In this document: one piece after another, positions 17,187 through 21,787 of the stretch
Layout of the letters: every line of letters begins with the position of its first letter
How positions within the stretch are numbered: position 1 is the first letter of the stretch
Source of the DNA: a virus
Virus record (IMG/VR): IMGVR_UViG_3300033571_003999
Span: 1-22,232 of that record
DNA: 22,232 bases
Reading direction: 5' to 3' (one strand)
Program-made: the position numbers and the translations under genes
The notes under the pieces: generated by a model
Seen by the model: the letters and a program-made list of their open reading frames with translations, nothing else
Told to the model about the DNA's origin: nothing
The model's database searches: none

Positions 17187-17689
17187 TGTCCCACAAACCT
17201 CCCGATCAAGTCTGACGCAATCTTACGGCTGGGCACTTGACCTTTTTGCTTGTCAATTGCTGGATTGACCGACCATGCAATGGCGGCATCGGTTATCGCC
17301 GCAGATTCAATGCTGCCAATGTAGCGGCTGATAAGCTGCGCGCTGCTGGCATCAAATGAATCCTCGCCGGGGTCCTGCACGATCAGGCTTGCGATGATCA
17401 AGGACCCACCGCCTACAGCCTGCTCGGTCAGATCAACCACATCGCCAACCGCAGCAATGTCTACGTTGAGCTGGTTGATCGACCCAGCATCAACAGAGCT
17501 GAATCCGTCAACATCAAACGCCAAATACAGGTAGCTGCCTGCCACATCGGTGTCAATGCTGAATGTTTGCGCCACTTGATAGAAGTTCTGCCATTGCCGC
17601 GTTGGCGCACGTTTGCCGCTGATCGGATCACGCACGTTTGTGCGATCTGCGTAGTACTCAAGGAAACACATGATGTCGTAGTCGTTCAT
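17183..17689 (-). CDS. Minor tail protein, 168 aa (L-like position)
   Basis: A 168-residue protein beginning MNDYDIMCFLEYYADRTN, directly after the tape measure gene (1-nt overlap). Beta-rich body segments such as AGSYLYLAFDVDGFSSVDAG and GSLIIASLIVQDPGEDSFDA fit a small tail-tip structural protein. In lambda-like gene order the gene after the tape measure encodes gpM or gpL-type minor tail proteins. The lambda gpL iron-sulfur cysteines are not apparent. Role assigned by synteny. Confidence 0.72.
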   Translation of the reverse strand: MNDYDIMCFLEYYADRTNVRDPISGKRAPTRQWQNFYQVAQTFSIDTDVAGSYLYLAFDVDGFSSVDAGSINQLNVDIAAVGDVVDLTEQAVGGGSLIIASLIVQDPGEDSFDASSAQLISRYIGSIESAAITDAAIAWSVNPAIDKQKGQVPSRKIASDLIGRFVGQ

Positions 17690-20142
17690 CAGGCCAGCCC
17701 CACTGCGCGACGTGTGCTGCGATCATTGCGCATCAGGTCGAGGGTCTGCTGCACGCCAGCCTGCACGGCACGGCTTAGGTCTTGCGTGGTCACATAATTG
17801 GCGCCGTTCATTTGTGTAACAGGCCCCGTCTGGATGCTGACCTGGGCATTGCTTGGCACCACCACGCCGCCCTCAGCAAACCGCGGAATCGCAGCAGCAC
17901 CACGGCGGCCGGCCATCCAGTTGGCGGCAAATCCGGCAGCCTTGGACTGCGGCACGATGTACTCCGGCTCGCCGCCCTCTCCAACCATTGCCACGGTTGG
18001 GCCGCTAACCACGCCACCTTCAGCGAAGCGAGGCAGGGAAACGGTCGGGATCGTCGGTATGCCTGGCAACCGGAGCCGTGACAATGCCGCGTTAGCACCA
18101 GCGATCATGCGGTTGAGTGCCGAAATGGCGCCGTTGATGCCGCGCTCGATGCCGCCGATGATGTTGTTCACCACGCCCTTGATCATGTTGGCCGCGGCCG
18201 TGAAGGGTGCCGCCAGCGCCTGAGCCAGGCCGGAGAACAGCGATTTGATCCCATCCACCATCGCCTTGAGCGCATTGGCTACCGGGTCGATAAAGACGAT
18301 CTTGAACCCAGCAGCTCCTGCTTGCAGGATCCCGCCAATAGCATTGAACACATCACCAATCTGATCGCGGAAGGCATAGATCGCTACGCCAGCAGCCACC
18401 AGTAATGCCACCCAGCCCACGGGGCCGCTGAAGATCGCAAGCAGCAGCTGGCCAAGCGGAGCCAATGCCGCCATCAGCGGCGCGATCGCACCAGCCCAGC
18501 CAGCAATCAAAGCGGGGATGCTCACCAGTGCGGCAGCAATGCCCGTGAACAATGGCCCCACCAGCGTCAGCACAGAAACCAACGCCGTGATCGCAGGCGC
18601 AAAGGCAATAAACGCAGCGGTCAAGCCTGTCATGATTCCAAGGATTGTCTGCACAGGTCCCGGCAAACTAGAGAACCAAGTTGCTAGGCCCGCGATCCCT
18701 TGTCCAAGCTGAATAGCCAGAGGAAGCAATGAAACGATTGCATTGCCTACAGCCTGTATAGCGCTAGGCAATACAGCTGCAAACTTCTGAGCAAATTCAG
18801 TGATATAAGGCAAAGCGGCTGTTAGGGCCTGATTAAATGGCCCAGCAATCGTTCTGCCAATTCCAGCAAGTGTGTCATTGAACTGGTCAGCCGCTGCGGC
18901 CATCTCAGTGCTAATTGTTGATTGATATTTCTCTAATCCGGCGCGGCCCTGATCCAGCATTGGGATCAAATTAACCCCTGCTTTGCCAAATAACTCTTGA
19001 GCTAGGGCAGCCTTCTTGGCTGGATCTTCCATCTTACTAAACTTATCGGCTATATCCAGCATTACCTGATCGACTGGACGCAGCTTGCCGGCCGAGTCAG
19101 TTGCTGAGATGCCAAGCTCAGCCAAGGCGTTACTAGCGCTTTTGCTGTTATTTTCCAAGGCATCAGCGGCGTCTTTGTATTGCGCTTTTATAGCTTCCAA
19201 CTGAGCAGCGGTAGCTGACTCAATCATCTTGGCCTGCGACTGTTGGTTGTTTTTTATGATTGACTCTTCCGACATTTTTCTTTCTTCAAGCGCATCTTCT
19301 TCTGCCCTTCTCCTGTCACGAAGCTGGCGACCGCGCATTTTCTGGCTAGCCTGATGCCTTTTGTTTAGAGCATGAAGCTCATCCTCTTCTTGCAGCTTTA
19401 GATTGTTCAGCTGATTCTCTCGGTCTGCATCGGCAAGGCCTTCGTTTGCGTCTATTGACCTGCGCATTTTGTCGTATCTTTGGTTGATGGCTCGCTCTGT
19501 CTTGCGCAACGACTCATCTGCCAATTCTCGATCAGCATCAGCTTGATCGTCATAGCGATCATCCAACAGCCCCTGCTCGCGTCTATATCTTTTGTTTAGC
19601 TCTCTCAACCGTGCATCGGTTTCATTTTCAAGTGCATCGAGCCTATCTCGACCCTGCTCTTTAACCAAATCGGTTTGCTCGCGCTCTCCTCTCTTGATTG
19701 CTTCTAGCGCATCATCACTGGCAGATTTGACTTTAGTTGCATAGTCATTCGCACCGGCTCCAGCAGCCACCATGCCCTTGCTAAGGCGTGCCATGCCTTT
19801 AGCAACTTCGTCAACGCTACTTCCACTATCGGCAGCGGCATTGCCAAACTTACTTAGCGTTTCAACAGCAACGCCAGTGCGCTGGCTGAGATCATAAAGA
19901 TGATCCGCGGCGTCGATTGAACGCTTGGCAAAGGCAGCTAAGCCAGCCAATGCAGCTGCCGGAATCAAAGCACCCAGCAGGCCACCGATGCCGCTAGCGG
20001 CACCCTTAAGGCGACCAAGCGCGCCGGCGGTTTCTTTTGCTTCGCCCTGAGTGCCCTGCAGGGCTCTGTTCAATGCAACGATATTATTGACGCCATCGAC
20101 ATCAGCCTTGATCCTGACGGCAGCCTCCATGTTTAACGCCAT
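17689..20142 (-). CDS. Tape measure protein
   Basis: An 817-residue protein, the longest in the window. The N-terminus (AAVRIKADVDGVNNIVALNR) is the typical tape measure start. Residues about 145-335 form a highly charged coiled coil (for example REQTDLVKEQGRDRLDALEN, RRRAEEDALEERKMSEESII). The middle has several hydrophobic spans (LPLAIQLGQGIAGLATWFSS, FSGPVGWVALLVAAGVAIYA) for membrane insertion during DNA entry. The C-terminus has the paired motif RFAEGGVV and MVGEGGEPEYIVPQ common in phage tape measures. The long charged insert is larger than usual. It follows the G/G-T chaperones as expected. Confidence 0.95.
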   Translation of the reverse strand: MALNMEAAVRIKADVDGVNNIVALNRALQGTQGEAKETAGALGRLKGAASGIGGLLGALIPAAALAGLAAFAKRSIDAADHLYDLSQRTGVAVETLSKFGNAAADSGSSVDEVAKGMARLSKGMVAAGAGANDYATKVKSASDDALEAIKRGEREQTDLVKEQGRDRLDALENETDARLRELNKRYRREQGLLDDRYDDQADADRELADESLRKTERAINQRYDKMRRSIDANEGLADADRENQLNNLKLQEEDELHALNKRHQASQKMRGRQLRDRRRAEEDALEERKMSEESIIKNNQQSQAKMIESATAAQLEAIKAQYKDAADALENNSKSASNALAELGISATDSAGKLRPVDQVMLDIADKFSKMEDPAKKAALAQELFGKAGVNLIPMLDQGRAGLEKYQSTISTEMAAAADQFNDTLAGIGRTIAGPFNQALTAALPYITEFAQKFAAVLPSAIQAVGNAIVSLLPLAIQLGQGIAGLATWFSSLPGPVQTILGIMTGLTAAFIAFAPAITALVSVLTLVGPLFTGIAAALVSIPALIAGWAGAIAPLMAALAPLGQLLLAIFSGPVGWVALLVAAGVAIYAFRDQIGDVFNAIGGILQAGAAGFKIVFIDPVANALKAMVDGIKSLFSGLAQALAAPFTAAANMIKGVVNNIIGGIERGINGAISALNRMIAGANAALSRLRLPGIPTIPTVSLPRFAEGGVVSGPTVAMVGEGGEPEYIVPQSKAAGFAANWMAGRRGAAAIPRFAEGGVVVPSNAQVSIQTGPVTQMNGANYVTTQDLSRAVQAGVQQTLDLMRNDRSTRRAVGLA
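18482..18489. repeat. HIP1 octamer GCGATCGC
   Basis: Fourth copy of HIP1, within the tape measure gene. Confidence 0.9.
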
Positions 20143-20144
20143 AG

Positions 20145-20468
20145 CTACTTGCCCTTCTCGTGAACGGCCTGCAAGATCTCGCCCTCAATTACCTGGATGT
20201 CTTCCAGCATCGCGGCAGAGTCCTCAACTCCGTACAGTCTAAACGCCATGTCGAGCGCCAGGTAATCGAGCCCGATCAAACCAGCTGGGCCGCTGCGCCA
20301 TTGCGTCTGGCAGCGCAGGAACATCAGAACAGCAGACCACGCATCAGGTTCCACCTCGAAAAAGTCTGGCGTTTTCGGCAGATCAATGTCAAGGCCAAAG
20401 GCTGCAGCGTCTTGAGCGGTCTGGTCGATTACGCCACCTCTTATCCAGTAACGCGCAGCCTCGATCAG
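20145..20468 (-). CDS. Tail assembly chaperone T-part (DUF1799-like), read by -1 frameshift
   Basis: A 107-residue segment with no canonical start at its beginning; it is expected only as the C-terminal part of a G-T fusion. From the slip site it reads LIEAARYWIRGGVIDQ, then FGLDIDLPKTPDFFEV and EPDAWSAVLMFLRCQTQWR, SGPAGLIGLDYLAL and a final helix. The WSAV...QWR...GLDY pattern is that of DUF1799 (lambda gpT-like). The frame is open through the slip site with no ATG, GTG or TTG until GTG 20354, and a start there would lose 38 family-like residues. Fused to the 126-aa G part, the product would be about 233 residues, close in layout to lambda gpGT. It would bind the tape measure during tail assembly. 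Confidence 0.85.
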   Translation of the reverse strand: MIEAARYWIRGGVIDQTAQDAAAFGLDIDLPKTPDFFEVEPDAWSAVLMFLRCQTQWRSGPAGLIGLDYLALDMAFRLYGVEDSAAMLEDIQVIEGEILQAVHEKGK

Positions 20469-20845
20469 TTTTTTGTTTTCTTGCCCCCGATACTCTCGAA
20501 ATAAGCCTCGATGATCGAGCCGGCCAAGCTAGGCACATTCAGCAGTTCAGCCTTGGTCGTTTTGCTGAACACCACCTCTTCGCCTTCGTCGTCCACGATG
20601 CCGGACCAACCTGCCAGCACCTCATCGGCAATCGAGATGTCGGAGATGTCGCCCTCATACTGGCGGCCAAGATCCGCAGCCCTTAGACGCGCTTGAACCT
20701 CAGTCTGGATTTCATTGATCCGAGACTGAGGCAAGCGACAGAAGTCTGCCTCGAATGACTGCCGCTCATACTTGCCGCCATCGGTCGGTACGCGAAAGCT
20801 TACCGGCCACCTGTAGGTGGCAGATTGATTAAGGACAAACGCCAT
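20465..20845 (-). CDS. Tail assembly chaperone (gpG-like)
   Basis: A 126-residue acidic protein lying between tail tube and tape measure genes, the place of lambda gene G. Features include PVSFRVPTDGGKYERQSFEA near the start, a helical middle (INEIQTEVQARLRAADLGRQ) and a C-terminus FESIGGKKTKN that ends right at a slippery A_AAA_AAC followed by TGA. The body (VLAGWSGIVDDEGEEVVFSK) matches the conserved WxGI/V-D motif of phage tail chaperones. It is expected in excess over the frameshifted G-T form. Confidence 0.88.
   Translation of the reverse strand: MAFVLNQSATYRWPVSFRVPTDGGKYERQSFEADFCRLPQSRINEIQTEVQARLRAADLGRQYEGDISDISIADEVLAGWSGIVDDEGEEVVFSKTTKAELLNVPSLAGSIIEAYFESIGGKKTKN
20468..20474 (-). 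promoter_or_regulatory. Programmed -1 ribosomal frameshift site A_AAA_AAC
   Basis: On the minus strand the last G codons are ACA AAA AAC TGA. The heptamer A_AAA_AAC fits the X_XXY_YYZ rule and is a known strong slippery sequence (for example mouse mammary tumour virus gag-pro). Slipping back one base continues as CTG ATC GAG into the DUF1799-like frame. A possible stem pairs CTGATCGA (20461-20468) with TCGACCAG (20421-20428) with one mismatch. Confidence 0.85.
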
Positions 20846-20851
20846 GCAGGA

Positions 20852-21787
20852 TCAGGTGAAGACGATGCTCACCTCATCATTGCCCGAACTGCTGGGAATT
20901 GCAACAACGGGGATCGACAGCATCGTGATGCCGTCCTGGTCGTCGTAGCTGACATCACCGATGTCAACCGTGCTGCTGCTCACCGTGACGATGTTGCCGG
21001 CGGTGATGCCGTGCGTAAACTGCAAATTCCCCAAGGTGCTGTCAGACAGGGCAGCCGTGAAGTAGTTCTTAGTGGCAAGCGCCACGGCTTCGATCATCAC
21101 GTTGCCGCTCACCTTGCGATCAGTGATCAGCACCTCCTTAGTGCAGCCAACCAGCTCGCGGTAGGCAACCTCATTGCCCATGTCCATCTCGATGGACTGA
21201 AGACAGCCGGCATAGCTCAGCAGTTGGAAGCTGCTGGTGTTGCCATCCTTGAACACCAGCGGCACAGCTTGGTTGGTGTAGGTGGCGGAGGGCAGCGCCG
21301 TGTCGGTCGGTGCGTTGTAGATGCCCGTCATCGTGAACTCGATGTAGGGAATCTCGCCCACGGTTCCGTTGAGCGTGAAGGTGCCCCGGCAGCCGGTCAG
21401 TTTGTGGCGCACACCGTCCACGTTGTAGTAGAGGGTGACCGAGCTGAAGCTGCTGCTCACCGGCGCATAGGTGACGCTGGTGCTGCTCACAACGGTTTCG
21501 CTGAAACCGCAAGCCTTCAGGATCGAGCCGAATCGAGGCGCGGTTCCTGCAGCGCCAGAGCCGGCAAGCTCAACTTGAAAGGTGATCTCGACGCGAGTAT
21601 TGGCCAGCAGCGTTTGAGAAGCGCCAAGGTAGGGGCGGATTAGCTCACGCTCTACCGTGTCGCTCTGCAGCGGGGTGATTTCCAACTCGCGCACCAACAC
21701 CGCATCAGTGCCAGCAGGGGAGCTGTCGGTGCCGTATGTCGCTTCTGCCTTAGCCAGCAGGAGGCGTTTCCGGGTCAGCAGAGCCAT
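20852..21787 (-). CDS. Major tail tube protein
   Basis: A 311-residue beta-rich protein, start ATG 21787 with GAGGA (21796-21800 on the minus strand) as ribosome-binding site. The N-terminus (RKRLLLAKAEATYGTDSSPA, then LVRELEITPLQSDTVERELI) has the known signature of siphophage tail tube proteins of the phage tail protein superfamily. A second part (GCRGTFTLNGTVGEIPYIEF, TMTGIYNAPTD) repeats tube-like strands. Position after a terminator-like gene and before G/T agrees. The strong ribosome site is consistent with the high copy number needed for a tube protein. Confidence 0.9.
   Translation of the reverse strand: MALLTRKRLLLAKAEATYGTDSSPAGTDAVLVRELEITPLQSDTVERELIRPYLGASQTLLANTRVEITFQVELAGSGAAGTAPRFGSILKACGFSETVVSSTSVTYAPVSSSFSSVTLYYNVDGVRHKLTGCRGTFTLNGTVGEIPYIEFTMTGIYNAPTDTALPSATYTNQAVPLVFKDGNTSSFQLLSYAGCLQSIEMDMGNEVAYRELVGCTKEVLITDRKVSGNVMIEAVALATKNYFTAALSDSTLGNLQFTHGITAGNIVTVSSSTVDIGDVSYDDQDGITMLSIPVVAIPSSSGNDEVSIVFT

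Follow-up and report, generated by a model that had tools for sequence, protein, structure and literature searches.

The tail module of a 22,232-base stand-alone viral record, analysed whole and referred to below as the window, very probably contains a lambda G/GT-type programmed -1 ribosomal frameshift, judging from its sequence and that of its relatives, by which a G-like tail assembly chaperone would be joined to a DUF1799 protein, T. Support for this reading comes from the anatomy of the locus, its conservation, coding selection in the -1 frame, the absent start codon of T, gene order and family assignment. The points that count against it are that the heptamer is of low efficiency in E. 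coli, that the stem predicted in the window is not significant by itself, that an abutting stop reduced -1 shifting when another element was tested in published work, and that most Webervirus relatives have no canonical heptamer, though they keep the frame relation between the two genes.

The tail module is of siphophage type and lies on the minus strand, where it includes a tail terminator (22231-21920), a tail tube (major tail) protein that is the upstream neighbour of G (20852..21787; PF18906 Phage_tube_2, E 2.7e-25) and a tape measure protein that is the downstream neighbour of T (17689..20142; phrog_3981, tail length tape measure, E 2.1e-59; PF10145, E 4.2e-9). The 126 aa G-like ORF (20465..20845, minus strand) runs from an ATG at 20845 to a TGA at 20467-20465, and this zero-frame stop directly abuts the slippery heptamer A_AAA_AAC (20468..20474, minus strand), bearing out the initial sequence-only reading, in which G was described as ending ACA AAA AAC TGA with the slip site right before the stop. 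The surrounding sequence, 5' to 3' on the minus strand, is GGC AAG AAA ACA AAA AAC TGA TCG AGG CTG. The 107 aa DUF1799 ORF in the -1 frame (20145..20468, minus strand; stop at 20147-20145) has as its first codon the CTG at 20468-20466, from which it reads LIEAARYWIRGGVIDQTAQDAAAFGLDIDLPKTPDFFEVE..., the same continuation being given as LIEAARYWIRGGVIDQ..., with ...KKTKN-LIEAAR... as the predicted fusion junction. Ahead of the slip site, the -1 frame of the window contains no ATG, GTG or TTG back to its preceding stop, and the earliest start codon within T is the GTG at 20354, at codon index 38; the earlier statements that this frame runs startless into the DUF1799 protein, and that initiation at the GTG would miss residues, are thus both correct. 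Slippage of -1 at 20468-20474 would generate a fused GT protein of about 233 aa (126 + 107), encoded by 20145..20845 of the minus strand. The interval first singled out, 20421-20474, takes in only the slip site plus the junction peptide; the functional unit is the longer 20845-20145. AAAAAAC itself is present five times on the two strands of the window (1.35 expected), whereas AAAAAACTRA occurs once, at the end of G, against 0.01 expected in shuffled sequence; given its conservation, the slip-site arrangement is far beyond chance.

The same arrangement recurs throughout the relatives. Among the 80 viral loci found with G as the query, which reach down to about 55% identity, 79 have an AAA AAC that runs straight into TGA or TAA and a -1 frame that opens into T. 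The sole exception is L031, in which the frame of G is broken inside the gene; its slip site is kept when the locus is viewed from T (as L121). The break, near codon 26 of an otherwise intact relative, is probably an assembly error. Both slip site and stop are also kept in loci that T retrieved at 37-48% identity; in one group of these the stop is delayed by a codon (AAC TTC TAG), and another group has A_AAA_AAT. Wider sampling brought the related loci scored to 447, and in 444 of them the frame of T is -1 relative to G; the G ORF of one locus, L160, was mis-chosen by the automated frame scoring and reads GAA AAA AAC TGA by eye. When T proteins were grouped at 70% identity, giving 62 clusters, a canonical heptamer (A_AAA_AAC, G_GGA_AAC or A_AAA_AAT) was found in at least one member of about 60. 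The gene order is tail tube, G/T, tape measure, and GenBank phages of cyanobacteria, Rhodobacterales, Vibrio and enterobacteria follow the same plan, most of them with A_AAA_AAC or G_GGA_AAC abutting the stop. With slip site, frame, startless T and gene order conserved over hundreds of relatives, the proposal that a programmed -1 frameshift joins G to the DUF1799 protein is strongly supported.

Some loci depart from this plan. In those of the Klebsiella Webervirus type (L395-L405, L407 and L171), G ends GCA AAA GTT/GTC TAA, which does not fit X_XXY_YYZ, and T is still in the -1 frame; slippage here may perhaps take place on a weak A_AAA tetramer. L406, close kin of these, retains GCA AAA AAC TAA. 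L443 carries nine consecutive A at its slip site and has T shifted +1 (or -2) with respect to the G ORF, reflecting either a homopolymer assembly error or a different shift.

The stop codon is itself a conserved part of the site. It abuts the heptamer in 56 of the 62 cluster representatives (55 clusters by majority), as compared with the approximately 16% expected from the codon usage of T, a comparison uncorrected for shared ancestry. Residue 2 of T changes across relatives (I/T/K/R/E/S) while the zero-frame stop persists. Separate selection seems to act on the abutting stop. A few lineages (the L420/L422 and L351/L106 groups) no longer have it in that place, their stop lying 24 nt or 3 nt past the heptamer through loss or displacement, and these are useful natural contrasts.

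Selection on the slip codons and on the beginning of T was assessed in the same family. Across 29 distinct close relatives, the slip codons have zero synonymous difference, versus 0.3-0.5 in most flanking codon blocks. The codon preceding AAA varies (GCA, AGA, CGA, GAA, ACA and others), yet it invariably ends in A, or in G if GGA follows, as pairing under X_XXY_YYZ demands and the encoded protein does not. Between the slip site and the first start codon of T, pN/pS is 0.39 in the -1 frame, compared with 1.38 and 1.44 in the other frames; this stretch evolves as protein in the -1 frame only. In 50 of 58 representatives, there is no T-frame start codon from the upstream stop to the slip site.

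These data bear on the possibility that T is an independent gene, translated from an internal start (GTG 20354) or through termination-reinitiation after the stop of G, with the slip site being incidental. Such a GTG is indeed present, and T is annotated as a separate, truncated ORF in several GenBank records. However, the 38 residues of T that would be left untranslated are conserved and under purifying selection in the -1 frame, the slip codons show no synonymous change and the window sequence has nothing resembling a Shine-Dalgarno motif at the usual spacing ahead of GTG 20354. Furthermore, the first start codon inside T occupies no consistent place, ranging from codon 4 to codon 72 across the representatives, with 5 of 58 having none ahead of the conserved T core. 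An independent T gene is therefore very improbable. Comparably improbable is that the fusion arises through transcriptional slippage, RNA polymerase adding or dropping an A on the run at the slip site. This run consists of six A, and extends to nine in L443, the relative with T in another frame; yet six is short for polymerase slippage, some lineages have G_GGA_AAC at the same place and thus no long homopolymer, and the base before the AAA or GGA codon obeys the X_XXY_YYZ rule. Least credible by some distance is that one continuous GT gene has been split by a sequencing or assembly indel: a one-base change would join G and T into one protein, and the frame break inside G of L031 is probably of that kind, but a frame relation shared by 444 of 447 loci, finished GenBank phages among them, already refutes this by its conservation.

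A programmed -1 frameshift may be aided by RNA structure downstream of the slip site, typically a stem-loop some 5-9 nt past the heptamer. In the window, a possible stimulatory stem (20398..20462, minus strand) begins 5 nt past the heptamer, with a 5' arm at 20462-20450 (GAGGCUGCGCGUU) and a 3' arm at 20411-20398; the predicted long stem, GAGGCUGC.../...GCAGCCUU, is common to the nearest relatives of the window. Taken alone, this stem is no better than those of shuffled sequences, with z of -1.27 for dinucleotide and 0.2 for codon shuffles. Across the family, folding windows starting 0-6 nt past the heptamer beat shuffles with a mean z of about -1.3, as against -0.4 at 9 nt. The hairpins of different lineages share the region of the 5' arm and differ in their 3' arms and registers, so covariation in a single alignment is not meaningful, and a null was used instead in which synonymous codons were permuted within each T gene. 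Relative to this codon-shuffle null, the first 32 nt have a mean z of -1.40 +/- 0.20, with half of the 58 representatives at p <= 0.05, whereas control windows deeper in T have z of -0.02 to -0.22; structure in excess of the null is found only beside the slip site. Within the window's own cluster, the mean synonymous variability of the stem codons is not clearly below that of neighbouring codons, hence conservation alone is no proof of the long stem. The family data accordingly support a stimulatory hairpin, and in many of its members one that starts about 5-8 nt downstream probably promotes shifting; for the window such a hairpin is no more than suggested.

The assignment of both proteins rests on profile matches. 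G of the window matches phrog_569 (E 9e-17) and the tail assembly chaperone family phrog_313 (E 6e-4), and its own Pfam profile search returned no match; PF08748 Phage_TAC_4 is matched by 31 of 42 aligned members of the G family, with a best E of 1.7e-43. T of the window matches PF08809 DUF1799 (E 2.1e-15; 57.1 bits, with a cut-off of 26) and phrog_680 (E 3.6e-26), and all 48 aligned T family members match the DUF1799 profile. Both phrog_569 (256 positions) and phrog_17368 (213 positions) exceed the length of either G or T alone. The predicted model of G aligned to the HK97 gp13-type fold 2OB9 with a VIA Z of 3.1 (rmsd 5.3 over 83 residues), a score tied by unrelated chains; Foldseek matched G among viral models to annotated tape measure chaperones (Scapp, E 2.2e-4), and against the PDB it returned no significant match for G or T. 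A sequence search of solved structures gave no convincing relative of either protein, and a scan of genome contigs with T no confirmed relative. Matches of T to bL20 (E about 0.01) were taken as chance.

Under the proposed mechanism, the majority of ribosomes would translate G and terminate at the UGA, while a minority would slip back by one base on A_AAA_AAC, where tRNA-Lys and tRNA-Asn would pair anew with AAA AAA, and continue through the DUF1799 frame to produce the fused GT protein (about 233 aa). If the parallel with lambda holds, the tape measure protein would then be coated by G and by the G part of GT, while the T part would bring in tail tube protein, allowing the tail to polymerise to its measured length. 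We infer the slippage itself, its level and its role in assembly. The heptamer, originally called canonical, merits that description in eukaryotes; in E. coli it is of low efficiency (PMC4066793), which fits a minority fusion product, and the expected level of shifting is low, a few per cent.

The suggestion that a stop immediately after the slip site could enhance shifting is unsupported. In published tests of an HIV-1 element, a stop at the position after the heptamer lowered -1 shifting, and overproduction of RF2 abolished it in bacteria (PMC4373837). The first result, though obtained with another element, means that efficiency at the present site could be very low, and it favours a role for the stop in G termination and low shifting: most likely, it ends G precisely and holds shifting low via release-factor competition. 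A further idea, to which we give rather little credence, is that in DUF1799-type phages the low-efficiency heptamer, the abutting stop and the close hairpin might make up one signal unit, in which the zero-frame stop occupies the ribosomal A site during slippage and release-factor competition sets a host-responsive GT:G ratio. If so, this ratio could follow the termination capacity of the host (RF2 for the common UGA).

These results provide an annotation fix for a large group of phages in which T is often shortened, missed or mislabelled as a tape measure, and the rule is a simple one: A_AAA_AAC or G_GGA_AAC, directly followed by the stop of G, then DUF1799 in the -1 frame. For instance, many records call T a 'tail length tape measure protein' (phrog_680), and G of phage S-LBS1 (gene A18; L157, 1501-1881) carries the label ABC-type cobalamin transporter ATPase; both look misannotated. 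The family also supplies many natural comparisons for the question of why phages retain a stop right after a slippery heptamer, where published tests show lower -1 shifting.

Frameshifting in the tail chaperone genes of long-tailed phages is textbook knowledge. In the lambda case, G/GT (Levin 1993; Xu, Hendrix and Duda 2004), both G and GT serve as chaperones of the tape measure, and the arrangement is conserved across many long-tailed phages, according to the summary in PMC5009743. As in lambda, the window has overlapping chaperone genes between those for the tail tube and tape measure, with a -1 shift near the end of G predicted to yield a G-T fusion; unlike lambda, T is a DUF1799 protein and the heptamer is A_AAA_AAC instead of G_GGA_AAG. 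This difference in slip sequence had been pointed out at the outset; it is real but not unusual for phage tail chaperones, as phiCbK, Loki, HCTV-2 and possibly Dragolir attest. A tail chaperone -1 shift is placed at AAAAAAC in Caulobacter phage phiCbK and at GGGAAAC in Colossus (PMC3556154), and at A_AAA_AAC in the halovirus HCTV-2 (PMC5009743); on these accounts, the heptamers are exactly the two found across the family of the window, although the hosts differ. Acinetobacter phage Loki gp12/gp13, described together with IME_AB3 (PMC5313236), has AAAAAAC immediately beside the chaperone stop, a likeness in site layout to the window, the frameshift in Loki being itself predicted. By contrast, the mean distance from slip site to stop in the sets analysed with PRFect is 26 nt (SEA-PHAGES) and 36 nt (Xu set) (PMC10885494), as opposed to a heptamer that abuts the stop in the window. 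The same low-efficiency heptamer is used for a low-abundance fusion in IS1 insA-insB, a proven A_AAA_AAC frameshift with no established stimulator (PMC4066793), whose transposase products are unrelated to the tail chaperone proteins of the window. Another parallel is gp49/gp50 of the Rhodobacter phage RcapMu, where a G-like protein 32% identical to that of the window is followed by a DUF1799 T in the -1 frame; its heptamer, G_GGA_AAC rather than A_AAA_AAC, likewise abuts a TGA, and its GenBank record carries a 'potential -1 frameshift' ahead of a DUF1799 gene. A statement that the heptamer abuts the stop family-wide, and that this stop is maintained, was not found in the open-licence literature and may exist elsewhere. 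The G/T frameshift of the window is ordinary in kind, with the selected abutting stop as its mildly new part.
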